NCBI RefSeq assembly: GCF_000264995.1
Contig: NW_006767450.1
Span: forward strand, 45,728 to 109,727
DNA from: Punctularia strigosozonata HHB-11173 SS5
Lineage: Eukaryota; Basidiomycota; Agaricomycetes; Corticiales; Punctulariaceae
Direction: 5' to 3'
DNA length: 64,000 bases
Shown: piece after piece, positions 38,189 through 58,815 of the stretch
How the letters are laid out: each line of letters begins with the position of its first letter
Position numbering within the stretch: position 1 is the stretch's first letter
The notes under the pieces: model-generated
Database searches by the model: none
The model's input: only the letters and a program-made list of their open reading frames with translations
Told to the model about the DNA's origin: nothing
Program-made: the position numbers and the translations under genes

Positions 38189-39359
38189 TCACAAGCGTGA
38201 ATGCGCCTCGCGGTCAAGTAGCAAACTGTCCACCCAGCTCGCGAAGCTGTCCTGCACTTCGTCGGGAGGTACCGCATCTTCCCTAGTTTCGTCTCCGGGC
38301 CTATACTTGCCGGTTTTCACTACAAAATCGGCTCAGATCTCCTTACCGCACCACGGTCGACAACGCGAAGTAGCTTACCGAGGACCCTCCACAAGCCGAG
38401 CTCCAGCGCACCCTCCCCGAGGTCCGCGGCCACGTCGTCGCCGATGACGGCGATCCTCCCTGCGTCGCCTCCTGCACATTGGGGATATCAGAGCCCGTGG
38501 ACCGTGGTGGTCGATGGGATTGCTCGCGTACCGTCCAGGTTCATGCTGCCGATGACGCTCTCAAAAAACGCCTTCGTCGACTTACCGACCACCTCCGCCT
38601 TGGCGCCGCTCGCGTCCTCGAGCGCTGCGACAAAAGGCCCAGGGCCCAGGGACAGCTGCTTATCGGGCGTCCGGACGTATTTGGCCTTATGCGTAGCGAG
38701 GAATGCGATGTTCGGTTTCGAGGTCGAGGTCGAGGCAGAGGCAGAGGCAGAGGCAGAAGAAGGCTGGCCTTCCTCGCCGATTAGGACGCGGAAGGCGGTG
38801 GTGAGGTTATCGTAGGTGAACATTGCCGGTGCGAGGCCAACAACGACGGCATCGTATGGTGTGTTCGGGTCGGAGGAGGGAAGGTTGGCAGAACATTCTT
38901 CGGCTGCTGAAGGCGAGAGGAGGAAGTATGGTCTGCGATGGGGTGTCAACGATCCGTGTTTCCGGGCCGCATCAGAGATAGAACTGCCCGTAGTTCACGC
39001 AAGGCATGCACGGAAAGACGATTCGAGCACGAAAGTATACCTCACCTATGAAGTCCTCTCGCCTCGATCATCCTCTTGACCGCACCGAGGCTCGTCCACA
39101 CCTCCTCCTCTCCTCCTTCTTTGCCTTCTGGCCCGACGACAACCTTGGACTTTACACCGAAACCCATCGCGCGTAGCTTGCGCACGAGGTCGGCCGTGCT
39201 CTCCTTGCTCGTGTTGCTGCAGAACCGGAAGGGGACGCGCGCCTCGCGCAGGCGCTGGAGGGCCGCGACGGCGCCGGGGAGCGCGGAGGTGCCGATGTGC
39301 AGCGTTCCCGAGAGGTCGATGAGGACAGCGCGAATCGCTGGACGGGAGACCATCGGCAT
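38189..39359 (-). CDS. HAD-superfamily hydrolase, HDHD2/LHPP-like
   Basis: Exons (minus) 39359-39046, 38932-38532, 38459-38379 and 38319-38189, phases agreeing, 308 aa. HAD motif I is DLSGTLH (Asp15), the serine-containing form typical of HDHD2 proteins. Motif II is FRFCSNTSKES. A lysine after VVGKSTKAFFES fits motif III, and IGDDVAADLGEGA is motif IV. The end VKTGKYRPGDE matches the family C-terminus. The protein is a predicted cytosolic Mg-dependent phosphatase; the substrate is unknown. It is about 50 residues longer than animal HDHD2, mostly from a Ser/Ala-rich insert (SASASASASTSTSK) and a loop in the cap region. Intron 1 (113 bp) is longer than its neighbours. A second ATG two codons downstream could also serve as start. 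Convergent with the NmrA-like gene. Confidence 0.9.
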
Positions 39360-39726
39360 AACAGAGAGAGAGATAGTGGTCCAAGATTCGGGGGTGCGGT
39401 TATCCGATGATTATTGGCTGGTTACTATGTACATGGCGGAGAGGAGACTGGATCCATTGCTACCAAGGGACGCTCCCTTGCGATTTGCGGCCTGCGTCAT
39501 CTCATACGGGATCCGTGTTACTGTAGTTCGTAGGCAAGTAAATCAATCCAAGGCTGAAGCCTAGAAAGCGCCGACGATGAACATACTGGCAGGAGGGAAC
39601 ACGTGCTGACCGAGTGTCCTGGCCTTGCACAGCGACCACGACGGACTGCACATAATAATACTTTGCGGACAATTCACTGAATACACGGTTACCACTGACC
39701 TCGAAGGAAACGAAGGCGCCCGATCG
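39360..39726. other. Intergenic, nothing recognised
   Basis: 5' flank of the minus-strand hydrolase gene. No gene or repeat was seen before the BTB remnant. Confidence 0.4.
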
Positions 39727-39850
39727 TTCACGGAAATGGACCCCTGCAAGGGTTTATGGTACAAGAACGGTAGCATCGTGCTCCCCGACATGCTTGCGAT
39801 TTTTTCCCTCATGCTAACATCGATGTCCTCTATGGTTGTCTACTCGTCTT
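39727..39850 (+). pseudogene. BTB/POZ gene remnant
   Basis: The frame reads FTEMDPCKGLWYKNGSIVL, matching the start of the BTB domain of the neighbouring genes. It then jumps straight to sequence matching DMLA-(I/L)-S-P-(E/D)-A-N-(I/V)-D-P-(L/M)-Y-GC, losing about 25 codons and the frame. Only the first exon portion survives. It lies about 260 bp upstream of an intact copy. Confidence 0.8.
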
Positions 39851-40113
39851 CAGCTTTACATCGGTTTAGGCGGCGTGGTAAGCGATAGACCCGCACGAAT
39901 ATGGCAATCCTTAACTCAAAGCGAACCAGGTTGCAGCACCGGCCCAAGCTATATCCAAATGCTGTCGCCGATACCAAGTATAGGTGTTTCTCGATGTACT
40001 TGCACGTGGTGATCTTCAAGCTATTCGGAATCGAAAAGGCGGCCTGGAGGAGCTATCGTCCTCATCTTATCTCACCCCTCCCCCATCTCCTGCCGATACT
40101 AATTCCAAGAACC

Positions 40114-41122
40114 ATGGCCAACACCCCGAATACCAGCACCGGCGTTGAGGATATAGAAACATCAACCTCGTTAACCGAGCTCACTCGTTGCGAAGGTCTA
40201 TGGTATGAGGACGGCAGCATTGTGCTCGCATCCGAAGGGGTTGGCTTCCGGGTCTATCGGATGCTCCTAGCTCAAAACTCATCTGTCTTTGCGAATATGC
40301 TCGCCATGTCTTCGCCCGAGAGTAACATTGATCCCTCGTACGACTGCCCAATTGTTCACATGCCGGACTCTGCCGCCCAACTGCGTTATCTTCTCCTGGC
40401 ACTTCACGACGTTAGGTACGATTCCCGATCCATGCCATATCATGCGAGCGGATGCCCATACCGATCCCAGAGCCACTGAACGCTTGAAACGCGCGCCGTT
40501 CATGGAGACGATAGCCGTCGCCTCGTTGGCGGCGAAGTACGAAATTGGCCACCTTCTCGACAGCGCGGTGGAGCGCTTCGCATCCATGTATCCCACGTCA
40601 TTCAACAAATGGGTAACCACACGTGGAACCCCCGTGACTCCTGTGCTAAAGCCAGGCCAACATCATGCCGCACTGCAGTTGGCGCATCAGCTGCAGATGA
40701 GCCATCTGGTGCCCGTGATACTCCTCGCAATGTGCTACGGAGGCGTCCGCAGCATCTTGAGAAGCGGCCTGCCACCTCACGACCTAGAGGTGTTGCTCCT
40801 GGGCTTTACAAAGCTGCAGGTGATGCAACGAACCCATACCTTCCGATGGTTGTATCGGCCGGTGGTGAGATGCACTGCTCCTGCTTCGTGCAACCGCAGG
40901 AGAGCGGAGATGTCCTTGCTCATGGAAAAGATGTTCAGTTGCGACAAGCTCTACGTCTTTGATCTATCGCTGGAGCAATTCAGCGTGCCGCTGTCTGAGG
41001 TGTTGTGTGACCGGTGTGTCACGGATGCTTTCAGGACTCAAAAGGCTGGACTGGAAAGTGCTTGGGAGGACTTGCCCTCCGTTTTTGGCATGGAAACGTG
41101 GCATAAGCTGGGGGCCAAGTGA
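40114..41122 (+). CDS. BTB/POZ protein 1 of the cluster
   Basis: Exons 40114-40415 and 40471-41122 (intron GTACGA...CAG, 55 bp, phase 2), 317 aa. Exon 1 is the BTB/POZ fold: a CEGLWYEDGSIVLASEGVGF strand-turn, VYRMLLAQNSSVFANML, then SAAQLRYLLLALHD. Exon 2 continues with the helical MAAKY-like motif (VASLAAKYEIGHL) and a C-terminal half found in every copy here. That half has a C-x5-C pair (CTAPASC), a C-x2-C pair (CDRC) and AWEDLPSVFG. BTB domains make protein contacts, often as cullin-3 adaptors or transcription regulators; no DNA-binding motif is seen. The start was chosen because exon 1 is then 302 bp, as in copies 2 and 3; an in-frame ATG also exists at 39901. Confidence 0.88.
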
Positions 41123-42095
41123 ACCAGTCACGATGAGGGATGAGAGTCATGGTATGAATATATGTCATTCCGAGTGTTTCCAAGTTCTGAGATTCATCAT
41201 CTCTAGGGACGCTTTTCCATGACAATTGAATCGCGCACTCAAGTAGAAGGTAGAGGTCATTCATCCGAAAGTGGATTGCTGTGTTGTGGTTAGTGCATCG
41301 GCACACTTGTTTACTTTCTTATACTTCTTGTATTCTGCCTATCCCTATTCCTCGCCTCGTTCGGGCTCGTAGGTCCTGCATGATTGCTGCAGGCTGCAAT
41401 GCGTACAAAGACTGCTGCCTTTCCCATCATTATATCATGCTCAACCATCATGGGCTATGTCATCTACATGCAATGGACTGAAGGAACGCCTTTGACACGC
41501 CTTCAAACAGGGTTCACAAAGTGCCTAGCTCGAACTTCATTGGCGATTTCCCCCTACCTCACAGTTCATTGGCGATTTTCCGCGGAGCCCATTGAGGCCC
41601 GGTGTGTATACAATATCTTCCGGACATTGCCCTAACTTAACCGGCTGGAAGGTACGTGATCGTGCGTGGAACTAGTTCCCCGCAAATGCCACCTAAACTC
41701 TTTGGGACGAGCTGCGCCGGCCCCCGGGTATGAACCATCTGCCTGCTATTTATGGTTGGCGCGCGGCCTCGACGCAACCCGTGGGCTAGATTTCAGTTTT
41801 GTCAGAATCACGTACCGGAAAATTGAGTTATCTGACAGATTCGTCGCGTCGTAGCAGCAGCCACTTCAGAGCTATGCCGTTCGTGTTTTAGGCAAAGGCA
41901 TGAGGGTTGGATATGGCGCGCTTTCTTGAAGTAATAATCTACGTGATTTTGGCCATAGATACTTGGTTTTTGTACAGGGAGTAATAAAATATGTGCTTTG
42001 TAGCTCTGGCTGTGCAGGAAAGACCAACCCTTATCTCGTCGTGTCTCCCGCACTTCGCCGTATTGATCACTCACTACTCCCTTGTGCTAAACACC
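41123..42095. other. Intergenic between BTB copies 1 and 2
   Basis: Unique sequence without recognisable genes. A short LTRLQ-type frame near 41500 has no support. Confidence 0.4.
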
Positions 42096-43102
42096 ATGAG
42101 CACATCCAACATCCGGCCTCGATCCCACCAGATCGAACCGAAATCGAAACCATCGGCACAGTTGACTCGGTGCGATGAGTTGTGGTACGAGGACGGCAGC
42201 ATCATCCTCGCCGCAGAAGGGATAGGGTTCAAGGTCTATCGCATGCTGCTAGCTCAACACTCTGCCGTATTCGCCGATATGCTCGCGCTCTCGGAACCGA
42301 GCGCGAATATCGATCCTCTACACGGTTGTCCGCTCGTGCACATGCCGGACTCGGCGGAAGAGCTACGTTACCTGTTACTTGCTATCCATGACATCGAGTA
42401 TGTCCTGCTCAACCCGATCTCCCTCCATGTTATACTCAAACCTACACCTGACGTCGACGTAGCCCAGCAGCATACTTAAAGCGCGCGTCATTCGCTGGAG
42501 TGCTTGCCGTCGCAGCTCTGTCCGCGAAGTACGATATCGCAGCCCTCCAAGACTGCTCAGCACGGCGTCTCGAATACTGGTATCCTTCCGACATCCTCCG
42601 GTGGAATTCGACGATTAGTAGTCGCTCAAAGTTAACGAGTGCAGACCACGCCAAATCGCTCAGGGTGGCACGAAAACTCTCCCTTGACCCCTCCGTTCGC
42701 GTGATGATGATGTTCGCGCTGTGCGAAATGGGTATCAAGGCGATTGCTAGCGCAAACTTGGAGCCTGATGACTTGGAAGACGTGATGGGTGGATTTGTCA
42801 AGCTGCAGGTCGTTCGGCGCATACGCTCATTCAGTTGGCTATGCGGTCTTCCGAAGGATTGTCCGAACTGGCGTGCGTGTAGCGCCGTGAAGGCAATGCT
42901 CTTCAAAAACTTGGTGGATCTCGATCCAACCACGCACAAACTCGATCTCTACAGCTCTACCACCGAAGAAGATTTATCGCAGCACATGCCGCAGGGTCGT
43001 GATCTGTGCTCCAACTGCACCGAAAGCGCCCTCGACTGCATAAGAACAGGATCGTTCGATATCTGGGGAGATATCTTGACAGCGTTCGATCATCATGTCT
43101 AA
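42096..43102 (+). CDS. BTB/POZ protein 2
   Basis: Exons 42096-42397 and 42463-43102, 313 aa, intron 65 bp (GTATGT...TAG) at the same site and phase as copy 1. The BTB segment (CDELWYEDGSIILAAEGIGF) is intact. The second half is the most diverged of the set (ISSRSKLTSADHAKSLR; a FVKLQVVRRIRSFSWL core) but keeps CPNWRAC (C-x5-C), CSNC (C-x2-C) and IWGDILTAF. A strong DNA hairpin lies about 90 bp past its stop codon. Confidence 0.87.
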
Positions 43103-43191
43103 TGTGCGCTAATTTCCTGACTCACCGTCTGTGCTTTGCGTATACTTACTGTACTTTGCAGTGCCAGGCGTGGACTTACAATTCGCCCTCC

Positions 43192-43250
43192 GAGCTTTGT
43201 AGGAGTATTGGACTCCGATACTCTAGAAGTCCGATACTCCTACAGAGCTC
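43192..43250. repeat. Inverted repeat, 22-bp arms, 15-base loop
   Basis: GAGCTTTGTAGGAGTATTGG... at 43192-43213 pairs with 43229-43250 with two mismatches. It is a single strong stem between BTB copies 2 and 3, in the 3' flank of copy 2. It may act in transcript end formation or be the footprint of a small mobile element. Confidence 0.85.
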
Positions 43251-43534
43251 ACGCACCATCCGTTTGTTTCCTATTAATGGGAGAGCGACCGTCGTGGTAC
43301 AAAGCGGGTCGTGTACGATGAGGGAGAACCTGTTTCGAATTTCATCGTCCCGATGTAGCCGGTACGTATTGAGGACGTGCGTCGACTACTGGATCGAGTG
43401 ACTGTGCAGACTTATCATATAAGAACTCGTTATACTCGCTGTGAGTAATACGTGTGGACGATCGACTCATGCCCGATATCACCGGACACATCTCCTTCCC
43501 GCGACTATGTCAGCGCCCCATCCCCGTGTTCCCG

Positions 43535-44513
43535 ATGCCGTTTGGCGGAGTAAACGACAGCATGTCTGAAGTCCGCGATACTGAGATGGTGTCGCCTCAC
43601 CTCGCTCGCTGCGAAGAACTTTGGTACTTGGATGGTAGCATCGTACTCGCTGCTGAAGGGGTCGCGTTCAAGGTCTACCGCATGCTGCTGGCTCAACACT
43701 CGTCCGTTTTCGCAGACATGCTGGCCATCTCCCATCCGGACGCAAACGTCGACCCGTTGTACGATTGTCCACTCGTACATATGCCAGACTCTGCTGAAGA
43801 CCTGCGATGCCTCCTCCTGGCCATTCACGATATCAAGTGCGCCCACTCTCATTCCCTCTATCGTACCCCGATTCTCACTCTAACCTCTGGAATGACGTAG
43901 CTCGGGAGAACGTTTAGACAATGCACCCTTTGCAGAAGCTGCGGCGGTCGCGTCCCTAGCTGCCAAATATGACATCCCCCGCCTCCGCGACCGCGCCCTG
44001 CAGCGCTTCGACAGCTGGTTCCCCGGCTCTCTTCACAAGTGGAACGTGCGCCCGACGCTGGCCCCCACGGACTACGTCAAAGCCCTCCGCATTGCGAGAC
44101 AACTCCAGCGCTCATGCACCCTTCCGTTGATCATGCTCGCGCTCTGCGATCGCGGGCTGGACGCGATCCTCTCCGCTGGGCTCGAACCAAACGACCTTCG
44201 CATTGCGCTGCACGGGTTCGTCACCCTGCAGGGATTGCAGCGCACGCACCCGTTTCGGTGGATCTATCGCGTCTCGGCGGCGTGCGCGAGCGTGCGGGAG
44301 TGCGGGGAGCAGAAGGCGCGGCTGTCGCGGACGATCGAGGAGGCGTTCATCAAGATCGACAAACTGTGCCTGTTCGAGCACGGCTTCTCCCGCGCGGCGT
44401 TGGAGCACGTCGGGCTCTGTCTCGGGTGCATCGACGATGCGATGATCACGGACAAGACCGGACGACAGCGCGCTTGGGAGGAGGTCCCAGCTGCGTTCAA
44501 TGGGCTGACATGA
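43535..44513 (+). CDS. BTB/POZ protein 3
   Basis: Exons 43535-43836 and 43901-44513, 304 aa, intron 64 bp (GTGCGC...TAG). The BTB part includes CEELWYLDGSIVLAAEGVAF and SAEDLRCLLLAIHD. Exon 2 has ASLAAKYDIPRLRDRALQRF, CASVREC, CLGC and AWEEVPAAF. Exon 2 is visibly more GC-rich than in copies 1 and 2. An in-frame ATG at 43454 would add 27 residues and one at 43562 would remove nine; 43535 gives the exon length shared with copies 1 and 2. Confidence 0.88.
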
Positions 44514-45343
44514 TTGAGGATCGCCTGCAAGATCGAGAGGTTAGTTGCGTACGTATACGGGCCCATTATCATACGCGTTCAAGCCTACTCACTCTGATCT
44601 GTCCAACAGATTGTCTTCAAATTGCCGAACCTTCATGCTGGTGCGACTGACTTGTCTCTTCCACATTATCTGCCATGCCCACGTCCTATCTCCAGAATGC
44701 GACAGCCAAGGGCAAAAAAGGTCGTGTGGTTGAAACGGCATACCGTGATTTCGATCAACTCTTGCCCGAGTGTCGTCCGGGAGGCACCGCAATGAACACG
44801 ACGGGGTGATTATGCCACTCTTGAGCGAATTTGATGTCACGCATAAGTCCCGTCTGGCTCCGTGAGACATGGTACAAGCCGTACTTTGGCGATTGTATGT
44901 AAGTAGGCGTTGTCAAACACGCGCAATTGTCAGGTATAGGATTGACGATACGGTATTGGCGGGTTTTGTGCTAGGATCATCTTGTTTTTCCGATCTCGAT
45001 GCCTCAGAAAGCCTGCCAGCCCAGAATTCTGAGCCACGAGTAGTCTCAGGTCATCTTGTTCTGAGATTTACAGCCGCAGAGGCGAAGGCAGATGTTGGCG
45101 AAGAATTATGTATGAACGCGATGACGCTTCCATGTCACCTTGTGCGACTTCCGCACATACCGAAGCAAAATGATTCGAGACGTTGCTGGACGGATTGGTG
45201 CGGTAGAAATGATATCGTTGGTACAGCAAGGATGTGGGGTCGGCGGTGGCAGAGCGGCAAGATGCGTACAGAGTCTACAGACGCGCCTGCCTCTTGCTTC
45301 TACGACGAGTCACGACATCGCCGTCGACCGTTCTGCTTGCACC
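44514..45343. other. Intergenic between BTB copies 3 and 4
   Basis: No gene recognised on either strand. Copy 4 has an open frame upstream of its chosen start without family similarity. Confidence 0.4.
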
Positions 45344-46346
45344 ATGGATGCCGGAGCATCCCGGCCTGACGGCGAGCTGATTCATTCCGAGAAGCTCTGG
45401 TACGACGACGGCAACGTCGTGCTGGCATCGGAAAGCGTTGGCTTCAAGGTCTATCGCGGGCTGCTGGCCCAGCACTCCGCAGTGTTTGCGGACATGTTCG
45501 CGGTTTGCGATCACGATACCAACATCGATCCACGTTACGGTTGTCCGCTCGTCTATATGCCGGATCCAGCGGAGGATCTGGAGCGCTTACTGTCGGCCAT
45601 ATTTCATGGCACGGGGTGAGTCGAGTCACACCCGTCCTTGTGAAGATAAAACAGTCCTAATACTTCTGAATCGCTCCAGCCTCGAAGATCACGGACCGTT
45701 GCCCGAAACCATCTCTATTCTCTCGCTGTCGATCAAGTACGACATCAACCGTCTCCGTGATCGTGCCATGCGACGCTTTGAAGATTATTATCCTGCCGAT
45801 TTTGATTCATACGTCTCGTCAATACCCTCCTGCCATCTAGACGGTTCGCCTGCAGACCATGCCCGTGCTATGGCGCTAGCACGGACGCTTGGGCTATCTA
45901 CCATTGTCCCCGTGACTATGCTCGCGCTGTGCGAGTACGGCATCGAAGGCATTCTGCAGGCCAATCTGGAGCCCGATGATTTGCTTGTCACCTTGAGAGG
46001 TCACCAGAAGCTTCACACCATACAGCGTACGTGCTCGCTCCGGTGGGCCTGCACCGGCTGCGAAGCCCCGAAGACGTGCGCATACATGCAATGGACGTTG
46101 AGTAAGGTGTTGGAGGATCAGTTCGAGAGTCGGGGGTTAGCATATTTACTCCGCGATCGCTTGGCACCTCCGTTCGCTCCATGCGAAACTTGCATGGGAT
46201 GCTCCACCCCAATTTGGGAGAACGAAGAGACGAATCGTAGGAACGCATGGGACTGCGTGCCAACGGTCTTCGGCTTCCGGTCATGGGAAGAGTTACAACG
46301 CGAAGAAACCATGGTTTGTCTGAACACTGGGCTTGCTATTCTCTGA
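45344..46346 (+). CDS. BTB/POZ protein 4
   Basis: Exons 45344-45615 and 45680-46346, 312 aa, intron 64 bp (GTGAGT...CAG). Its N-terminus is ten residues shorter than copies 1-3 (MDAGASRPDGELIHSEKLWY). The exon junction reads FHGTG|LEDHG in place of IHD(V/I)(R/K). It shares DMFAVCDHDTNIDPRYGCP and ERLLSAIF with the broken copy at 53.6-54.5 kb on the other strand, so those two form a subfamily. It keeps CEAPKTC (C-x5-C), CETC (C-x2-C) and AWDCVPTVFG. Confidence 0.87.
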
Positions 46347-47335
46347 GTCAATAGCTGAGCGCTGACCCCTCGCGTCCCCTCAACAGAATAAACGTGCAAA
46401 ACGGAAAATGCTGTAAACGGAGTTCCGAGGCCCTTTGTCTTGCGTTCTTGTCACCACCGACTTTTATCATGGACTCGTTGCACGTCCCTTCCCGTTCCCG
46501 ATACCATATTAGGCCCTCGTCTTCGTCTCACATGGCACGGGATAGACGTGGATCGGTCCAGCACGGAAGAACCGACGAGTCCATCTCGGGCTATGCCTTG
46601 TCTTATCGTCGCAACGATAGTGGTCGTTGGCTTTGCAGTACCTGGGGAGAACCATCACGGCTCGGAACTCTCTTGCAGAGTTTGTCCCCTCCACGATTGG
46701 GGAAGGATGCACGAGGGACGAAAAGGCGTCGCCATCATAGTCCATCAGCTGTGAACGGCATCAATATTTCATGCCCTAAAAACAACTCACTGCTTCACTG
46801 TCATCTCATAGCCTTGGTAGAAAGAATGGCAATGGTCTGCACGGATCAGTGCACAGCGATCGCGGTCCACCGCCGCCGGTTATTGTGCCTCGAAGCGGTA
46901 CACAGCAAGGTGGAAAGATTCAGTAGTTGTACGCAATCTGGAACCGTGAGCGCTCTCGATGCGCGGCATTGTTGCATGTCGACGAACGCGCGCAGTGCTG
47001 GAGCCAGGTTCGGAGCGTGAGCGGGCCGTCCGCACCGCGATTGAGCACGATCGACGATAGTAAAACATTTCCCGTAGTTAACGTCTGCACGTCCCACTCT
47101 TGAACCCGCACGACGACAAGAAACGCAGCAGCCAACCTCATCGTCAAGCAGTACAGCAAAAAGCGCGGGAGACAAAACAAGGGGGACACGCGGCGCAGGC
47201 GAGACAGCACGAGCACCGCCATGGCCCACCGACGCCGCCTACCTGTTGCCCCGTGCAACCCGACACGGGCTGCGATCACCTAGCGCCTCAAATACCTCCT
47301 CCATCTTCTGGTCCGCCCTCGTACACTTATCAGCT
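46347..47335. other. Intergenic
   Basis: A 208-codon plus-strand frame (46394-47020) lacks motifs, has no homologue among the neighbours and is probably chance. The last 200 bp are presumably the promoter of the protease gene. Confidence 0.4.
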
Positions 47336-49171
47336 ATGCTCCCTCTCATCCCGCTCGGACTCGTGCTCGCCGTGCTCGACGTCGTGTGCGCCATCCACGT
47401 CCCGATACACGTTACGCGCAAACCCGGGGCGGCGAGCCCAAGGAAACGAGCGCGGACGCTGGAGGGACGAGCCAGCGTGGCGGTCAACGACGTGCGCGAT
47501 GTGGAATACACGGGTAACATCACTCTTGGAGGGACGGCAAAGACGGTGCTGCTGGACACGGGCAGGTGAGTTTCGCGATGTTTGCGTGAACTTGTGCTGG
47601 TGTCTTATGGTTTCGTGTCCCCCGTAGTGCCGATCTGTGGGTGGTAGGAAGCGTACCGGGAACGAAGGACTTGGGGAAGAGCGCGACGATCAGCTACGCC
47701 ATTGGGTCTGCGAGCGGTGCGTCGTCACACGACACCTCATGTCATATGCCATTGCTGAGCATGGATGTGTTCTCCAGGCGATATCAACGCCGCATCTTTC
47801 CAGTTTGATAACTTTACCGTTGACGATCAGGCATACAGTGAGTGCTGTACCTCAGCTCGTTCGTGTCTTGCTACTAAGAGAAACCTCCCAAGTCCTCGTA
47901 CAAGACGCGTCCAATATCGGCCTTAACGACGGCATCCAGGGCCTCATGGGCCTCGGGCCCAACTCCAACTCCGTCGTCGCCAGCAAATTCAAAAACCTGA
48001 CCGGCGCTTCCCCACTCTCGCGGATCTTCTCCCAAAACAAGACCTCGTCGAACTACATCTCTCTCCTCCTCACGCGCGAGAACAACACCGGGGACGCCTT
48101 CACCTCCGGGCAGCTCACGATCTCGTCCCCAGTGCCGGGTTACGAGAACATCACGTCGCAGCCGAAGCTGTCCGTGGACAAAGTCAAGCTCTCCGCCGAC
48201 CAGCACTTCCAGGTGCTCACGGACTCGAACGGCATCATCGGTCCCGACGGGAACGCGCTCGACGTCTCGTCGATCGTGCCCGGCGTACACGACGGCAAGC
48301 TTGTTGCCGTATTCGACTCCGGGTTCTCGCTCCCTCAAGTGCCGCGCAAGGTATCGGACGCGATCTACGGCCGCGTGCAAGGGGCCAAGTACGACACCGA
48401 CAATGAGTGGTGGACGATCCCTTGCGACCAGTACCTAAACATCTCCTTCAAGTTCGGTGGCGTCACCTACCCCATCCACCCGCTCGACCTCAACTCGGAT
48501 TCGTCCGACCTCCGCGCCGGTGCCACCAACTGCGTCGGACCCGTACGTGTGCCCCCTCTTCCATCTTTTTTTTTCTTCTTTGCAATACTTCTTTCGTTCT
48601 CATCCCCGCTCTTCTTCCACAGTTCCAACCGATCGGCTCCGGCGCGTTCTCCATCATCGGCGACTACGACATGATCCTCGGCATGGGCTTCCTCCGCAAC
48701 ACCTACTCCCTCTTCGACTTCGGCGACTTCGTCTCCACCTCCTCCAACGACCGCTCGGACCCCTTCGTCCAGCTCCTCCCCATCACCGACCCGTCCACCG
48801 CCAAAGCCGACTTCGTCCGCGTCCGCCTCGGCGGCACCGACACGACCTCCTCCTCCTCCAAAACCCTCCTCCCCGCCTCGCAGCAGTCGCACTCGCCGCT
48901 CGCCCCCGGCGAGCGCTCGGCCCAGCTCAAGGAGCGCATCCTCTCGCACTGGTACCTCATCCTCATCGGCGCGATCGCCATCGTCGCCCTCGCGCTCGGC
49001 TGCGGCGTCTGGTGCTGCTGCTGCCGCGGACGCCGGCGCGGCGGCGCGCGCGCGGTCGGTTTCCGGGGCGTGAGCGTCCTCCCCGGCGCGCGCGGCGCGT
49101 ACAAGCCGCTGCACGACCCCGCGACCGGAGCGATGCACATGGCGCCCATGGGCGTCTCCGGGCGCGTCTGA
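47336..49171 (+). CDS. Pepsin-like aspartic protease (family A1), C-terminally membrane-anchored
   Basis: Exons 47336-47565, 47628-47716, 47778-47837, 47881-48542 and 48623-49171; introns 62, 61, 43 and 80 bp; 529 aa. A hydrophobic N-terminal signal (MLPLIPLGLVLAVLDVVCA) precedes a short basic propeptide (RKRARTLEG). The first catalytic loop is LLDTGSADLWV (Asp74, split by intron 1). The second is AVFDSGFSLPQ (Asp272), where Phe follows DSG instead of the usual Thr or Ser. The C-terminal lobe ends with SIIGDYDMILGMGFLRNTYSLFD. A Ser/Thr-rich stalk follows, then a transmembrane helix (about residues 457-478) and a CCCC-RGRRRGG cytosolic start. This points to a cell-surface protease with its catalytic domain outside, like yapsin-type or basidiomycete membrane A1 proteases. 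It converges on the GH3 gene with 196 bp between stop codons. Confidence 0.93.
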
Positions 49172-49367
49172 GATAAAAATGATATTGCTCCGTGTCTGCA
49201 CCCCCCCCCCTCTCGCGTCACACTCGTCGTTTGCACAATCTCTGTCTGTCTGTTCCAGAGGACGCTATCGCATTAGCTCTCTATTTATTCCCACACGTCA
49301 TCGCAATATATCAATATACACCGTGTTAAAAAACACTTTTTTTCTTTTCTTTCGTGGGCTGGCGCGA

Positions 49368-52300
49368 TCACGCTACGATTAGAGTCGCGTTCGCGAACGT
49401 CTCGAGCGCGTTGCCGACTTTGATTATGAACGCGCCGGGTTCCACCGCCCACTTGTTGTTCACGGTCCAGACCGCGAGCTGCTCCGACTTGACGGGAATA
49501 CGGACCGTCTCCGAGCCTCCGGCCTTGACGTCCACCTTGGCGAACCCGACGAGCTGCTGCACGGGCGTCACCGTGGAGCTGATCACGTCCGTCATGTACA
49601 CCTGCCCGTCGCGCGCACCAGGGGCGAATCAGAAACAGAACGGAGGGGAATCAGGGCCTTTGTTTTTTTGGGGGGGTAAAACCGCGTGCGTACCTGGACG
49701 ACCTCCTTCCCGTCCACCTTGCCCGTGTTGTGCACGGTGACGGTGACGTCAAAGTCCTCGTTCGTGCCGATCGTCGACTTCGACAACGTCAGCCCCGTGC
49801 TGTAACCGTTCAACATCCCGTGTCATCAGTGTTTTCCCGGGTGATCTACGAGATCGTTTTTTTTTCGGAATCTGACGCACTAGTTGAACGTCGTGTAGCT
49901 CAGCCCGTGTCCGAACCCCCACAGCGGCGCGGGGCTGTCGAGCACGTACTGGTGCCCGAACGCCAGCGTCCCGTTGTCCGTGATCCGGCCCGGGTCGAGC
50001 GGGCGCGCGGCCTTGAGGTAGTTGTAGAAGATCGGCGTCGTGCCGACGTCGCGCGGGAACGAGACGGGCAGCTTTCCGGACGGGTTCGCGTCCCCGAAGA
50101 GCACCTCGGCGAGCGCGAGCCCGCCGAGCTCGCCCGGGTAAAACTGCTGCACGACCGCGTCGGCGTCTTTATTTTTTTGCGCGCGCGCCACGTAACGGTT
50201 AAAAAAAAAAAAGGGGGGGGGGAGGTAAATCAGCGTTTTTTCGAGTGGGAGGGGCGGAGAGCGGAGGAGGGGTCGATTTACGCACTCTCCTGTATCCACG
50301 GCTCGGCGAGCGGTTTACCGCTGACGAACACGACCACCGTCGGCTTGCCCGTGCCCTTGACGGCCTGCACGAGCGCGCGCTGCGCGCCGACCAAGCCGAG
50401 ATCGCTCAGATCGACGTGCTCGCCCGTCGTCGCGTTCGTGCCCGGCGTCCAGAGCAGCGTCTGGTCGAGCGACCACGTCCCGACCACGACCACCGCGACG
50501 TCCGCGCCTCGCGCCGCGTCCACCGCGTCCGCGAACCCGCCGCGGTCGTCCGACCACAGCTCGCAGCCCTCGGCGTAGGCGAGCTCGACGGAGCTGTCGT
50601 TCGCGAGGAGCCGCCGCAGGCCGGCGAGGGGCGAGATGCCGTTGTGGGAGGCGTTGAAGAAGACGTAGTCGCCGAAGGAGACGCGGTCGGCCTGGGGGCC
50701 GATGAGCGCGAGCCGGAGGGGCGAGGTCTTGGAGAGGGGCAGGGTGCCGTTCCGGTTCTCGAGCAGGACGATCTGCTCTCGCTCCATCTGGTGCAGGAGC
50801 GCGCGCGTCGCGGACGTGCGGAGCGTCGCGTTGTAGTCCGCGTACGGATACGGATCTGCCCCCGACGTCAGGTTTCGAAAAGACGGGTGGAGCGTCGGCC
50901 CGAGGGGGGGACGACGCACTTTCGAAGAGGCCCATCATGAATTTGATGCGCAGGATGGTCGCGACGGTGTCGTCCACGTACTTGACGTCGACGGTGCCGT
51001 TCCGAACCGAGTCGGGCAGGGTGAGGAAGGTGTACGTGCCGCCGCCCATCTCGCCCGAGATATTCTCGACGACGATCTTGGCCGACGTCGCGCGGTCGGG
51101 GGCGACGAAGTGGAGGTCGTAGAGCATGTCGACCGAGCCCGCGTCAGCGGTGACGTAGTGCTTGTATCCCCATTCGTTCCGTAGCTGGGACCAAAAAAAA
51201 ACGGGATAAAAGAAGAGAGGTATGAGGAGGAGGATGGGAAGGCAATGGAAGGAGAGAACACGCACGATGTCGACCTGCAGGTGCGAGTTGGCGATGGCGG
51301 GTATGCCGTCGTAGGACGAGTAAGCAGTCATGATCGTCAGTGCGTCGACACACGCGCGCTTGAAAGGCGGGAGGTACATCGTCCGCAGCTCGCGCTCGCC
51401 ACCGTGCACGGGCGCGATGTTCCTATCCAACAACAAAAAAAGAAAAAAAATCAGAAAAGGACGGCCAGTGGGAAAGGGAGAGGGTATAACGCACAGACCG
51501 CCCTCCGGGGAGCCGAACGCGGCAAAGTGCTTGCAGGTCGCGGCCATGCGCGCCGTCGCGGTGTGCGAGACGTTGCGGCGGGTGCCGGACTGGATCCCGG
51601 ACACATACGCGTGGCCCATCTCGCCCGTCCTAGCATCGGACCCTCAGTTCCCAGTAGGGGGGTAAAAAGGGGACAGAAAAACGGGGGGGGGTGGGCGGCG
51701 GGGGGNNNNNNNNNNNNNNNNNNNNNNNNNNNNNNNNNNNNNNNNNNNNNNNNNNNNNNNNNNNNNNNNNNNNNNNNNNNNNNNNNNNNNNNNNNNNNNN
51801 NNNNNNNNNNNNNNNNNNNNNNNNNNNNNNNNNNNNNNNNNNNNNNNNNNNNNNNNNNNNNNNNNNNNNNNNNNNNNNNNNNNNNNNNNNNNNNNNNNNN
51901 NNNNNNNNNNNNNNNNNNNNNNNNNNNNNNNNNNNNNNNNNNNNNNNNNNNNNNNNNNNNNNNNNNNNNNNNNNNNNNNNNNNNNNNNNNNNNNNNNNNN
52001 NNNNNNNNNNNNNNNNNNNNNNNNNNNNNNNNNNNNNNNNGGGGGGGTGGCGCGGGGGGGGCAGCTCACAGGAACGGGTCCTCGCCGTAGTTCTCCTCGA
52101 CGCGTCCCCACCGGAGCTCGCGCGAGAGGTCGAGCACTGGCGCGAAGATGTGGGTGATCCCGAGCCCCTCCGCCTCGTCCGAGATGCTCGCGGCCGCTTT
52201 TTGTAGGAGATCGGTGTTCCAGGAGGCGGCGAGACCGAGGGGCGAGGGCCAAGTCGTGCCGTTGTCGGTAAAGCCGTGCAGGCCCTCCGAGTCGACGAGG

Positions 52301-52905
52301 GCGGGGATGCCGAGCGTGGTGTTGTGCATGAGGTAGTCTTGCGCGGTCTGGATGGCGAAGACGAGCTGTGTGAAGAGGGGATTGAGGCCGGGTTTGCGAT
52401 GCACCACCCCCCACCGGAAGGGAGAGAAGGAGAGGATGCGGACCTTGTTCCATGGAGTGAGGTAGCCGGCCCAGATGCTGCCCGCCTTGGTGGCGAGCGA
52501 GTCGACGAGGCCGGTCGCGTTGAAGACGAGGGTGTCGTCGAGCGGGTCGGTCATGTTCATCCAGCCGCCGATGTCTCCCTGAATCCTGACGACGCACCAT
52601 ATTCGGTATATTGCTTGTCAGAGTTACGCGAGGACCGGGTACACGCACAGCTGGGCGACCTTCTCTTCAATCGTCATGCGGGGAAGCAGATCCGCGATTC
52701 GGTCCTCGATCGCCGCGTTCGGGTTCTTGTACGTCGGCATCGAGCCATCCTTGTTCGTCCCCCGGGCGTGCAAAGGAAAGTGGGCGTTGCGCGGGATGCC
52801 CCAGTGTTCGTGCGCGCGGTCATCCAGGACGGAAGAGGCGACGACGAGGGAGGACGCGGAGACGAAGAGGCCAAAGCCGACTAGTACCCGAGAGAGCGAA
52901 GGCAT
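49368..52905 (-). CDS. Secreted GH3 family glycoside hydrolase (beta-glucosidase/beta-xylosidase type)
   Basis: Exons (minus) 52905-52649, 52585-52444, 52365-52070, 51629-51495, 51422-51266, 51184-50920, 50855-50286, 50166-49881, 49799-49694 and 49601-49368; phases agree throughout; 815 aa. Signal peptide MPSLSRVLVGFGLFVSASSL; KVAQLIQGDIGGW start of the TIM barrel; GIPALVDSEGLHGF; FAPVLDLSRELRWGRVEENYGEDPFL; KHFAAFGSPEGG. The nucleophile region is YVTADAGSVDMLYD (Asp343 expected). The second domain has VLLENRNGTLPL and VVVVGTWSLDQT, then FYPGELGGLALAEVLFG, GFGHGLSYTTFNY and a fibronectin-III-like end. It acts outside the cell on plant-wall oligosaccharides. Specificity is not decidable by eye; TADAG is nearer to some xylosidases than to the SDWG of many glucosidases. 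The sequence gap (51706-52040) lies in intron 3, because the exons on both sides abut in the family alignment. Confidence 0.94.
51706..52040. other. Assembly gap, 335 N
   Basis: A run of N flanked on both sides by poly-G. It lies inside GH3 intron 3 (51630-52069), whose known ends are C-rich on the gene strand. Confidence 0.99.
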
Positions 52906-52969
52906 CGTCGCGAGTCCGTCAGTCTCCAGAACGCGAGCGCGCGCAGGAGACGGTTAGCGTCCGAAGGCC

Positions 52970-52976
52970 TTATAAA
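52970..52976 (-). promoter_or_regulatory. Probable TATA box of the GH3 gene
   Basis: CTTTATA on the minus strand, about 65 bp upstream of the ATG, in otherwise GC-rich sequence. Confidence 0.55.
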
Positions 52977-53579
52977 GCTCGCCCGGTCGCTGTCCCTAGC
53001 GCGCGTTCGCGCAATGCGTCCGAGGCGTCGGATATGGCCCCGAGCACGCGCTGGTTCTGATCCAAACGGCGTCGGCGTACACATGACCGAGTCCAGTCAT
53101 GCTCATCGAAGAAATAAACAAAGGCCATTGGCGGACGAAGGCGACGTCGCGGACCGGGCGGCGTTGAGGAGGAGGTTCGTGACGCGCAAGAGCGAAGAAA
53201 AGCCGTCCCGAGGATTCGCCGAGATGGCCGGGCCTGGTGGCTGTGCTACGGAGAGTCGACGTTTGCTGCGACATACATGTACAGGGGACACCCGCATCTG
53301 CATATGTACATGTACGCACAAGAGCCCCGGTGGAGAACCCACTTGGATACAACTTGTCGCTTTCATCACTCTCTCGGACCGTTTACCCCCTTCTTCGGAC
53401 CGTCCCACCAGTTGGCCTCTGAAGACCTCGATCTTGATGGCGCATGCGAGCAACCACAAGTTCTACACAATGGATAGGAAGGGCATCAGTGCGTCGGAAT
53501 GTATCTGATACCCACTCGTCCGACCTCAGCTTAACATCTCATTGTCCAGCTCCTTCCAAGGTGGCACACTTCGTTCCAT
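52977..53579. other. Intergenic, GH3 upstream region
   Basis: No gene recognised. Short frames on both strands lack motifs. Presumed promoter of GH3 and 3' flank of the broken BTB copy. Confidence 0.4.
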
Positions 53580-54528
53580 GCACTCCTACGGCCCTCTTCT
53601 TGACTCTTCAACGCGTCGGCGACGCATTCTTCGCAGAAGCCCATCTTCCTCTTCGAAGTCTTCTGAACCTGATTGTCGAACAGGAACAAGACGGTCTCGC
53701 TCAAGCGTTTTTCTCCTTTGGCCCCATCCGCGCCCGTTTAGCCGCCGCGCATGCAGCTGGTAACGTGCATGCCGGCGAAGGACCAGGATAGGCCCATCGG
53801 AATGGAGTGCGTTGCGCTGTACGCCTTGGAGTCCCGCGAATCCTCTTGAGAATAACAAGAAGATCGTCGGACCCCAAATTTTGCCCGAAGGTTGTTTTTC
53901 TATCCCGGATTGGCAAAGCGCGAGCACGGTCGCTGGGACTACGGCGTTCGGCCGCAGGCTCCGCGTCACCGTCAAAGCACGCGCATGATCTGCGGGTGAC
54001 TCTCTCATCCGCACGTTCTCGTCTAGAGCGACGGTCGAGGAACGCCACGAGAGGCGGCTCTCCGCATCGACGCGGAGACGTTTGGTTCCATATTTGCTCG
54101 ATAATGAAAGGATAGAGAGTGTGCGCGCCAAGGTCGCCACTTCGCACAAGGCTTCAGGAATCGCCCATTCATCGTTTCCATTCGTGACTTCAGAGTGACC
54201 ATTGGATCTGAAGGTCGAGTTTTCGACGGCACCTTGAATCGAAGATGGCTGATAGTAATTGTTGTAGGTGCTCCGCTAGGTCGGTCATATGGACGATCGG
54301 GCATCCGTAGCGAGCATCGGTGTTCGAATCATGATCGCAAACCTCGAACATGTCCGCAGACACCGTGGAGTGCTTCGCTAATAGCATACGTTAGACCCTG
54401 AATCCTATGCCTTCCGATGCGAGCACGATGCTGCCGTCGCTGTACCACAGCTCTTCGCAGCGTGTCAGGTGCCCGGGCGATGGTGAGGATGCGCCTGGCT
54501 CGATGCTTTGTTCGTGAGTTGCTCCCAT
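53580..54528 (-). pseudogene. Broken BTB/POZ copy, relative of copy 4
   Basis: Reads MGATHEQSIEPGASSPSPGH then CEELWYSDGSIVLASEGIGF with an in-frame TAA where the family has Tyr (VYRMLLA), then LLAKHSTVSADMFEVCDHDS and IVHMTDLAEHLQQLLSAIF. Past the intron position the family helices (ILSLSSKYGTKRLR) and a CTLPAAC pair can be found, but in shifting frames. At least one stop and two or more frameshifts are visible. It shares CDHD-N-D-RYGCP with copy 4, so it descends from that subtype and was duplicated in inverse orientation. Confidence 0.85.
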
Positions 54529-54979
54529 GGTGCTAAATAGTCGACACGGCGGTTGTAGGAGAACAGATGCAGGCTGTCGGAAATGAATGGGCAGGGCGAC
54601 AAGTGAGTACCCCGATGTCCACCTGCATACCACGTGTATACGTTGGTAATATCATGAGTATAGCAGGGATGCGGAATTCATAACAGGAGTCCAGGACAGC
54701 ATTCGTCACATGGAAGCTACGAATAAATACAGATCCTATACCAAGGCACCTGAGTCCTGAGCATGGATATCCCTCGTGCATGTAGAGAACGGGTGATTGT
54801 AATACTCTGAGCTTATACTTTGCATTTGGCTAGTCCCATCTTCTGGATCATGAGACACTCGTGCTGGACGTGGAGCTGGAAGAGGACGCGTGAGCTTGTA
54901 CCTACAAAGGACTCTCCAACGAGAACAAAATTGTTCACATAATTCGTGAGATGCCCCGAGAGCATTGTAGCGTGCCTTG
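54529..54979. other. Intergenic, nothing recognised
   Basis: Flank between two minus-strand BTB copies. No further gene. Confidence 0.4.
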
Positions 54980-55958
54980 CTACAGCTCGTCCCAGGGCGG
55001 CAAGTCAAACGCAGCTGGCAAATCGTTCCAAACGATCTGACGCCCGGCGTTGTGCTTATCCGTCGCATCCGCGCCACAGGCCTCGCAAAAGCCGACGGTG
55101 AGAATGCTGGAGGACTCGGTGTAGGGGATGCCGAGTAGGACCAGTCTCCCGTTGCGGTTCAGCTCCTCCAGCTTCTCGAACATGGCCGCCTTCAGCGCCC
55201 CGCACGCGTGGTCAGATGTGCACGACGGCTGTCGCTGATACAGCCACGCGTCGATGCGCGTCCTGTGGAAGCTCTGAAGTCGCGAATGACCCATGAGGAG
55301 CGCGAGCAGGTCATCGGAGTCCAGGCCGCATTGCAGGATCTGGCGGATCCCGCGGCAGCACATGGTGAGCATGATGACGGGAATGGCGGCGTTCAGACGG
55401 AGCTGTCGGGCCAAGCTGAGCGCCGCGCAATGCTGCGCGCACGTCAGCTCGACCCGGTTCCGCGCCGCGGTCCAGTCATCGAGAGAGAGAGGGTAAAATT
55501 CGGCGAAACGCTGCGCGGCGCGATCGGGTGGGGAATGTCGTACTTGGCCGCCAACGAGGCGATGGCGACGATCTCCTCGAAAGGCGCGTTGTTAACGTGT
55601 TCAATGCTCCCTCTATGATGTGAAGTGAGAACATGAGCTCGGGACGGAACGATGCAGGGGAACGTGAAACGCACCTGACGTCGTGGATGGCCAGCAGCAG
55701 GTACTTAAGCTGCTCGGCCGAGTCGGGCATGTGAATCAACGGGCATCCGTAGAAGGGATCCACGTTGGCATCGGGAGTCGAGACGGCGAGCATGTCCGCG
55801 AATACGGACGAGTGCTGGGCGAGTAACATGCGGTAGATCTTGAAGCCGATCCCTTCCGCCGCGAGCACGATGCTCCCGTCGTCGTACCACAGCCCCTCGC
55901 AAAGCTCTAGCTCTGCGGACGGCTTGGATTCGTTGTGTAGAAAGCGGGTAGAATCCAT
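54980..55958 (-). pseudogene. BTB/POZ copy 5 with one frameshift
   Basis: Exon 1 55958-55675 (MDSTRFLHNESKPSAELELC, complete BTB fold), intron 62 bp, exon 2 55612-54980. Exon 2 starts well (APFEEIVAIASLAAKYDIPH). Near 55525 the frame changes where other copies read LRDRA; the length difference suits loss of about four bases. The remainder is open and typical: ARQLRLNAAIPVIMLTMCCR, CTSDHAC (C-x5-C), CEAC (C-x2-C) and VWNDLPAAFDLPPWDEL. With a single lesion this is either a very young pseudogene or a sequence error. Confidence 0.85.
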
Positions 55959-56464
55959 GCGATCTGGGCCTGATACGCCAGGATGGTGGTGAACCACAAC
56001 CAGCATATATACCGAGCGTCAACGCAAATCACGCGTCGTTACGTAGGCGCCTATCCAGTTCATGAGCGATAATCTGAACGATATAGCCCATGTCCATGAT
56101 GATCCATGCGATGGCGATGGACACCGGATGGTTCGTGCATGATTTGACATCCAAACAACGACCATCTCCGTGGTTTTTGATCGTTGTATTCAACTTCGAC
56201 GAAACTATGAACCCAATGCGTCACCGCTGGACGTTGGATTGACAGAAGCAGAGGTTTGGAAGCTGGATCATAAACCATACAAAGCATTCAGGTAAACCGA
56301 CGAAAGCACAGATCTAAAGATGACACGTCATGTTAGGCTAAGCAGCGGACAGCTTACGTGTAATTCAGGGTAACAGTACCTTAACAGCTACACGCAGTCC
56401 ATAGCCACAAGCAAGTGATACCTGTCACAGCAGAAAAACACATTTCTTTTGTTTGTAGCCCATC
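55959..56464. other. Intergenic between BTB copies 5 and 6
   Basis: No gene or repeat recognised. Contains the promoter of copy 5 on the minus strand. Confidence 0.4.
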
Positions 56465-57441
56465 CTACTGCGCCCCTGAGTCACTGAACACGGCAGGGAT
56501 CCGATCCCATATAGCCTTGCTCCTCGTTTCGTGAGCCACGACTGCGTGCTCTGTACATACATCGCAAAGGCCAGCGTCCCACATCTCGTCCTCGTCCGGC
56601 GTGGGCGTGAAGAGACGTAGCTTGGAGTCCGAGTCCATCGACCGTTCCATCGCATCCGCCAAATTATCCCTCGCAGACGCGCACAGCTCCTTGGTCTGAC
56701 AGAGGCGCGGGCCGCGAAAGAGCCACCGGTACGTGTTCTTCCTCTGCAGATTCTGCAACTTCGACAGGCCACGCAGCACAATGAGCAGATCGTCGGGTTC
56801 GAGCTCGGCTTGCAGGATCCGTTCGACGCCCTCCTGGCAGAGCGCGAGCATCATGAACGGCACGAGTACGGGCTTCTGGAGCTGGCGGGCAAGGTCGATA
56901 ACCGTGCGGTGCTCCGCGGGCGACAGCGGCGGGCGCAAGATATGCTTCCACGATATGATGACTTGGGGGTACCAGCGGTCGAGGCGGGCAACGATGCGGT
57001 CACGCAGGCGCGGGATGTCGTACTTGATCGCCAGATACGCAACAGCGGCGAACTCCTTGAACGGCGCCCGGTCGATGCGTTCTCCGAAGCTACACAAAAG
57101 GATCCGCGCCAATCCCGTCAGACTTCGCGGCGGCGGGATCATAAGAGGGAGGCCATACAGACGCACCTGACGTCGTGGATGGTCAGCAGCAAGTAACGAA
57201 GGTCTTCGGCCGGGTCCGAGAGGTGCACGAGCGGGCAACCGTACATGGGATCGACATTGGCCTCCGGGGATGAGAGCGCGAGCATGTCGGCGAACACGGA
57301 TGAGTGCTGGGCCAGGATCATCCGATAGACCTTGAACCCCATTCCTTCTGCGGCGAGTATGATGCTGCCGTCCTCGTACCACAGATCCTCGCAGCGAGAC
57401 AGTTGAACCGAAGACGAGTCGTTGTTGACCGGGAGGCCCAT
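56465..57441 (-). CDS. BTB/POZ protein 6
   Basis: Exons 57441-57167 and 57089-56465, 299 aa, intron 77 bp (GTGCGT...TAG), the longest intron of the family. BTB segment CEDLWYEDGSIILAAEGMGF and AEDLRYLLLTIHDVR. Exon 2 has AYLAIKYDIPRLRDRIVARL, CQTKELC (C-x5-C), CDVC (C-x2-C) and IWDRIPAVF. The start MGLPVNNDSS follows the length pattern of the other copies; the upstream frame is open but unconserved. Its upstream region carries a short tandem duplication (57616-57746). Confidence 0.88.
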
Positions 57442-57615
57442 GGTGTTCTTGGGGCAACAGGCAGTGGGGATAGGGGCAAAAGCTTGGTATCTGCAGAACG
57501 CATGCACATAGATCAGGTCTCGGCTATTGCCGGGCCGACAATAGCCGCGCACAAGTGGCTTGCAAACGCTCGCGTCGCACCCTGTAACTACTCTGGTGCG
57601 CTCCGTCGAACCCAA

Positions 57616-57746
57616 AGAGAGTAGCCTTACTATAACACATACAAGAATGCTACGAGATCTGCTATGGGCAACCCCTGTCCAATATGAGCCAGAGAGTAGC
57701 CTTACTATAACGCATACGAGAATGCTATGATGTCCAATATGAGCCT
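57616..57746. repeat. Imperfect ~75-bp tandem duplication upstream of BTB 6
   Basis: AGAGAGTAGCCTTACTATAAC followed by a GAATGCTA... stretch occurs at about 57617 and again at about 57690. TGTCCAATATGAGCC closes both copies (about 57677 and 57731). The second copy lacks about 20 bases. Confidence 0.85.
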
Positions 57747-57792
57747 CACACTCCACGCGCAGCTCGAACAGAAGGGCTCATGATCAGTTCCA

Positions 57793-58815
57793 TTACTCAG
57801 AATCTGAGTCGCCGCCGCTGTCATTCAGTAGTTCAGCCCAAGTCGGCAAACCGAAGATACTAGGCAACTCCTCCCATGCATGCTGGCGTCCGTGTTTCTG
57901 CGCCACAATCGCGTCTCCGAGGCACTGTCCGCATATGCCGAGCTCTGCCAAATGGTCTTCCGAGTAACCCTTCCCGAGCGCGTAATGCGTGTCGGTCTGG
58001 AACGTGTACTCCAACGCACTCAACATCCACCCCTTGTCGGCGCTGCACTCCCCGGGTGACGTGCATCCTGACGACAGACGATAAAGCCATCGGTAGACGT
58101 ACGCCCTCTGCATGTTCTGTAGCTTTGAGAATCCGAGAAGAAGAGTCGACAGGTCTTCAGGTTCCGGCGCACACGACAGTATGCCACGGATGCCGTGGTC
58201 ACAGATCGCGAGCATGATAACCGGGAAGGTCGAGGCCAGATCGAGCTTGCGGGCTAATCGCAGCGCTGAGTAATGATTCTCAGCCGTAAGGCTGGAAGGC
58301 TGATCATGCACGATGGTCCAGCGATCAAGGGTGGTGGGGTAGAAGGAGACGAAGCGTTCCAGAGCGCGATCCCGAAGGTGGGGGATGTCGTATTTGGCTG
58401 CCAACGACGCGACGGAGATAGTTTCTTCGTGAGACGCGTGGTTTAGCCGTTGGTTGACCCTAAGGGCGGAAGTGAGAAATAGGGGCCGGCCCCAGGATTT
58501 CCATGGCGCATGTTGAACCTACCTGATGTCATGAATCGCAAGGAGAAAAAGACGCAGGTCGTCGACGGGATCCGGCATATGCACGAGGGGACAACCATGG
58601 ACGAGATCGTGGTTCGTTTCTGGTGACGATATGGCGAGCATATCCGCGAACACTGACGAATGTTGCGCCAGCAGCATGCGATAGACTTTGAATCCGACAT
58701 CTTGAGCAACGAGAATGATAGTCCCATCCTCGTACCACAGTTCTTCGCAACGTCTGAACAAGGCCCATTCCCCATCAGATGGAGAATGGACCTTGTTGAC
58801 TTGGGATGGTTCCAT
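57793..58815 (-). CDS. BTB/POZ protein 7
   Basis: Exons 58815-58523 and 58459-57793, 319 aa, intron 63 bp (GTAGGT...TAG). N-terminus MEPSQVNKVHSPSDG, BTB strand CEELWYEDGTIILVAQDVGF, LRLFLLAIHDIR. Exon 2: VASLAAKYDIPHLRDRALER, CTSPGEC (C-x5-C), CGQC (C-x2-C), AWEELPSIFGLPTWAELL and an acidic Ser/Asp tail. Exon 2 most resembles copy 1 (RAYVYRWLYR versus HTFRWLYR). Confidence 0.88.

Follow-up and report, generated by a model that had tools for sequence, protein, structure and literature searches.

How did a set of related genes come to face one another from the two sides of a pair of enzyme genes? The question is raised by a locus of the basidiomycete Punctularia strigosozonata HHB-11173 SS5, in which copies of a BTB/POZ gene lie to the left and to the right of convergent aspartic protease and glycoside hydrolase family 3 (GH3) genes. 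We analyzed the 64-kb stretch that contains this locus (the window; contig NW_006767450.1, here C18, positions 45728 to 109727), together with genome searches covering 33.6 Mb in 32 contigs. With good though not full confidence, we read the locus as an ancient, locus-centered BTB/POZ array that has undergone birth and death and, at least once and long ago, an inversion or the inverted duplication of a block, and whose proteins are most likely adaptors.

BTB copies on both sides of the enzyme pair point inwards

BTB elements were located by tblastn with six intact proteins against the window, and gene models were built by hand from the sequence, "intact" denoting a prediction of open frames with splice sites. 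Between 39.69 and 58.82 kb, eight two-exon copies (c1 to c8) and one exon-1 remnant (c9) were found, so that all nine elements of the cluster described in an earlier note on this DNA were recovered, as was the orientation given there, with four intact genes on the left and two intact and two broken ones on the right. The left-hand genes, all on the plus strand and predicted to be intact, are c1 (40114 to 41122; exons 40114-40415 and 40471-41122; 317 amino acids), c2 (42096 to 43102; exons 42096-42397 and 42463-43102; 313 amino acids), c3 (43562 to 44513; exons 43562-43836 and 43901-44513; 295 amino acids) and c4 (45344 to 46346; exons 45344-45615 and 45680-46346; 312 amino acids). On the right, all on the minus strand, c7 (56465 to 57441; exons 57441-57167 and 57089-56465; 299 amino acids) and c8 (57793 to 58815; exons 58815-58523 and 58459-57793; 319 amino acids) complete the six predicted intact copies. 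Their neighbor c6 (54983 to 55958; exon 1, 55958-55675) has a single break of frame (near 55525, early in exon 2) and is otherwise open to its stop, while c5 (53567 to 54528) is heavily decayed: its exon 1 (54528-54233) contains an in-frame stop and its exon 2 several changes of frame. The remnant c9 (39691 to 39848, plus strand), which carries an internal deletion, was matched by tblastn with c1, c2 and c7 at E values of 1e-5 to 3e-3. Decay at different stages is seen in three of the nine elements (c5, c6 and c9). Given four plus- and four minus-strand genes, full segregation of strands by side occurs in 2 of 70 orders by hand count, and is thus mildly unusual.

A tenth copy, c0, lies outside the window near the start of the contig, about 84 kb to the left of c1 (C18:1816-835, minus strand; L037 835-1816); it is intact, encodes 310 amino acids and has the same intron as the other copies. 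The best 17 places in genome searches with c7, c4 and c8 were all on C18, and the next relative in these searches, at C7:1745 kb, was 41 to 47% identical over exon 1. A general BTB profile search of the genome gave at least 29 matches, some of them two to one gene; such searches score only the best candidates, and their counts are lower bounds.

Left and right copies interleave in trees

For phylogenetic analysis, the exons of nine copies (c0 to c8) and three outgroups (two from C7 and one from C5) were aligned as protein and columns less than 50% occupied were dropped, which kept 97 columns of exon 1 and 212 of exon 2; c9 and genome hits at C1 (four loci), C2 (two), C3 and C21 were left out. 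Identity among the nine copies ranged from 42 to 73% in exon 1 and from 25 to 44% in exon 2. The tree of the concatenated exons joined c4 and c5 strongly (Shimodaira-Hasegawa-like approximate likelihood ratio test [SH-aLRT] 99.9, ultrafast bootstrap [UFBoot] 95), confirming that c4 and the broken right-hand copy c5 are of one subtype. The pair c2 and c7 received moderate support (SH-aLRT 82, UFBoot 78), followed by c1 and c6 (81 and 69), and the remaining nodes were weak.

On the concatenated data, the approximately unbiased (AU) test rejected monophyly of the left copies (0.0002), of the right copies (0.001) and of both jointly (4e-6), and with them two separate arm-specific expansions. When c4 and c5 were left out, monophyly of the three remaining genes was borderline on the left (AU 0.088) and on the right (0.052), and the joint constraint was rejected (0.0167).

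We then weighed whether both arms could go back to a single inverted duplication, long ago, of a block of three (or four) BTB genes, an alternative that we consider credible but rather unlikely. The pairs c1-c8, c2-c7 and c4-c5 would then be the surviving mirror pairs, and c3 and c6 would be later gains or would have lost their partners. Constraining these three pairs costs 1.9 log-likelihood units relative to the best tree (AU 0.296), and of 96 three-pair left-right matchings this one comes 2nd; moreover, c4+c5 and c2+c7 are both the best-supported pairs and the closest left-right blastn matches longer than 100 bases (76.8 and 79.8% identity, respectively). However, the best three-pair matching (c1-c6, c2-c7, c4-c5) joins c1 with c6 and not with c8, and the strict four-pair mirror was disfavored by AU in two test sets (0.0145 and 0.00967), although not rejected by the Shimodaira-Hasegawa (SH) test (0.168 and 0.103). 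On single exons, its AU values were 0.0264 (exon 1) and 0.032 (exon 2). The c3-c6 pair by itself gave an AU value of 0.0559 in the second test set. The strict mirror was 3rd of 24 left-right pairings, and 4th of 105 when within-side pairs were allowed (fast mode), but c4-c5 is present in all of the best six of the 24, so that beyond this pair the mirror is only 3rd of 6. Since at least two mirror positions turn up in 29% of random pairings (7 of 24, by hand count), this count lends no significance to the pattern once c4+c5 is set aside. The earlier proposal that the mirror reflects duplication with inversion is thus partly upheld: the layout is real, left and right copies interleave and three pairs fit, but a four-pair mirror is disfavored (AU about 0.01, with no rejection by SH) and a recent event is unsupported.

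The two arms are old

The age of the arms was judged from four-fold degenerate sites and from noncoding DNA. Among seven intact copies, identity at four-fold sites was 229/582 (0.39) in exon 1 and 237/721 (0.33) in exon 2, with 0.28 expected at random from base composition, and corrected distances at these sites were about 1.4 for exon 1 (nine copies) and 2.0 for exon 2. Four-fold sites are near saturation among the copies.

Of 20 inverted repeats detected between 39 and 60 kb, 17 join one BTB copy to another, c9 being a partner in two, and the other 3 fall within the protease/GH3 region. Left-right comparison by blastn gave 26 matches, 25 of them inverted; coding DNA made up at least 84% of the inverted matches on either side, and most of the remainder was introns, so that similarity between the arms tracks the genes. 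When ten intergenic pieces were compared with one another, no left-right match was found, the one match (18 bases, E = 0.099) being between two left-hand pieces, which also speaks against the block duplication considered above. The arms are old, and the only sequence detected in common between them is what selection kept; a recent inverted duplication, supported neither by the intergenic DNA, which gave no left-right match, nor by the near-saturated four-fold sites, is rejected.

The shared intron predates the local copies

A phase-2 GT-AG intron of 55 to 77 bp interrupts the homologous codon in all seven long copies (c1 to c4 and c6 to c8). In c5, a plausible donor and acceptor, about 80 bp apart, lie at the same site, other AGs being possible, while c9 consists of exon 1 only and shows no intron. 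The earlier statement that all nine copies share the intron thus holds for seven and probably for c5, but was too wide in including c9, which has no assessable intron. In gene models, two distant paralogues, at C7:1745 kb and C7:716 kb, are likewise interrupted here by a phase-2 intron; a third, at C5:779 kb, appears by eye only to break at this position too. The intron therefore predates the copies at this locus and gives no evidence on how the locus arose; as distant C7 paralogues carry it, a locus-specific intron marking local duplication is ruled out.

Was there exchange between the arms?

Ongoing gene conversion across the center could in principle keep left and right copies alike, but we regard this as very unlikely. 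Overall four-fold identity in exon 1 is near random (369/970 = 0.38 over 36 pairs), and the c4-c5 pair, whose common subtype had been taken in the earlier note as support for exchange across the center, has 16 of 30 sites identical, an excess over the mean of 0.38 that falls short of significance (one-sided P = 0.064), so that this inference is not supported. Exon-1 identity is nominally raised for c2-c7 (17/30, P = 0.029), c0-c2 (17/28, P = 0.012) and c0-c7 (14/24, P = 0.035), these being picked pairs with one-sided P values uncorrected for the 36 pairs. Old conversion or shared codon use in this trio may lie behind these values, which do not show exchange across the center. Exon-2 four-fold identity of c0, c2 and c7 is not raised as a set (8/29, 9/22 and 8/35), and the trio includes c0, 84 kb away.

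The center and the borders of the locus

The central coding part of the aspartic protease (Pfam Asp PF00026, 30.1 bits) lies at 47628 to 48671 on the plus strand; judged from open frames, the gene seems to span about 47.3 to 49.2 kb, its outer exon ends being approximate. The GH3 gene (PF00933 and PF01915) occupies 49880 to 52953 on the minus strand, also with approximate outer ends, and converges with the protease gene. A genome search with its C-terminal piece gave a single additional match, a weak one (C4, E = 9e-4). At the mirror axis, an intron of the GH3 gene holds a run of 335 N (51706 to 52040), so that the mirror orientation could be imagined as the artefact of a wrong join, but pieces of the GH3 N-terminal profile flank the run in order and on one strand (positions 48-143 to its right and, in a weak match of 20.1 bits [E = 4.9e-4; cut-off, 27 bits], positions 146-180 to its left), which makes a wrong join there unlikely and, in our judgment, barely credible as the cause of the layout.

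Just left of the cluster, a single frame of 2763 amino acids (28902 to 37190, minus strand) matches gag, protease, reverse transcriptase, RNase H and integrase regions, as in a Ty3/gypsy-type retrotransposon. The left border itself (38491 to 39410, minus strand) holds open frames, of which 39045 to 39410 matches a HAD-like hydrolase (PF13344) and 38491 to 38994 gave no match.

A probable BTB core and a predicted helical region with four cysteines

When a profile of exon 1 was searched against the PDB, the best match was a ZBTB17/NAC1 BTB chain (E = 0.02), followed by KBTBD2 (E = 0.24). Exon 1 most likely encodes a BTB core, for dimerization and cullin contact; three cullin loci were found in the genome.

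Exon 2, which diverges faster than the conserved exon 1, most likely encodes a putative target-binding part. The c3 exon-2 piece (43901 to 44513), modeled from a seven-row alignment of window copies, was predicted to be all helical (mean predicted local distance difference test score 90.7; predicted template modeling score 0.84). Four cysteines, C128, C134, C173 and C176 in c3 exon-2 numbering, are invariant in all seven rows, forming CX5C and CX2C, and they may bind metal. A looser tail pattern, consisting of two spaced cysteines followed by CX2C and W..[LIVM]P..F, was present in six of the eight window copies (not c2 or c5), in c0 and in C1, C5 and C7 paralogues. A Pfam search with seven exon-2 pieces returned one unrelated family only (E = 0.23, in one of the seven rows), and BACK was not matched by any of the seven at E values up to 5, a search whose filters drop most matches above about 0.1. 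Likewise, the exon-2 profile had no match among PDB sequences at E values of 1 or less, and a fold search against the PDB gave 136 matches at E values up to 10, none at or below 0.001. Taken as a whole, the proteins most likely act as adaptors.

Elsewhere in the genome, at C1:4396-4406 kb, a few related BTB genes (L028, L031 and L033) lie together on both strands, two of them with the cysteine tail.

How the locus may have arisen

On the reading that we prefer, that of an ancient array shaped by birth and death, the BTB family would have arisen long ago by duplication in place. At least one early rearrangement, in which we infer that either part of the array was inverted or a block was duplicated in inverted orientation, would then have set copies on either side of the protease/GH3 pair. 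The copies would since have diverged to near synonymous saturation, with one now lying about 84 kb off and three of the nine decaying.

Several observations weigh against this reading. Exon 2 alone does not reject monophyly of the left copies (AU 0.111) and just rejects that of the right copies (0.0494), so that the check by exon trees proposed in the earlier note excludes left-only and right-only clades on the concatenated data but leaves a left clade on exon 2. Support within the locus is weak except for c4+c5, and the weakly supported topologies of exon 1 and exon 2 differ in part. The segregation of strands and the fit of three pairs would be neatly explained by a single inverted block duplication, which an ancient array with birth and death does not require. 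Finally, only two of the six intact proteins exceed the PF00651 gathering cut-off of 20.5 bits (c7, 21.0; c8, 22.1), the other four scoring 14.2 to 20.4 bits, with BTB as their sole match at E values of 0.1 or less.

A bolder picture, which we put forward as speculative and think improbable, is that a three-gene BTB block, duplicated with inversion in the distant past, has persisted around the enzyme pair long after its arms lost all detectable noncoding similarity, while a helical, four-cysteine target-binding region, undescribed in the domain libraries searched, diversifies and the BTB core is held. The locus illustrates clearly how birth and death proceed in a BTB array, with intact, lightly broken and decayed copies adjacent and a subtype common to both arms. 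The exon-2 region has the wider value: its four cysteines, invariant in the seven window rows, recur at varying spacing in distant paralogues of this genome, its fold is confidently predicted, and it matched neither Pfam nor solved structures in the searches made. It might serve to define a domain in a set of adaptors that, in our impression, are mostly unstudied.

Comparison with known systems

Palindromes are inverted gene arrays with conversion from arm to arm. At this locus, too, genes of opposite orientation flank a spacer, but unlike in palindromes, the arms are near synonymous saturation and without detected shared intergenic sequence. BTB-BACK adaptors of CUL3 ligases, of the kelch and SPOP type, carry a BTB core at the N terminus and a helical region after it. 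The locus proteins differ from them in having no BACK, kelch or MATH match, but resemble them in having a probable BTB core and then a predicted helical region, in a genome that encodes cullins.

A literature search, which mostly did not cover subscription journals, returned nothing on this BTB subfamily, its cysteine set or its layout, and nothing on fungal BTB genes was found in the available part of PMC6605638. BTB/POZ is named as abundant in arbuscular mycorrhizal fungi in PMC7550596, and one BTB/POZ gene appears in a table on conserved fruiting-body expression from PMC4082614. In PMC8893723, BTB/POZ proteins are listed with the ubiquitination genes of orthogroups that only complex multicellular fungi have, a listing in keeping with an adaptor role in the group at large, though it does not show one for these genes. 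With the BTB/POZ genes of mushroom-forming fungi, the genes of this locus have a probable BTB core in common.

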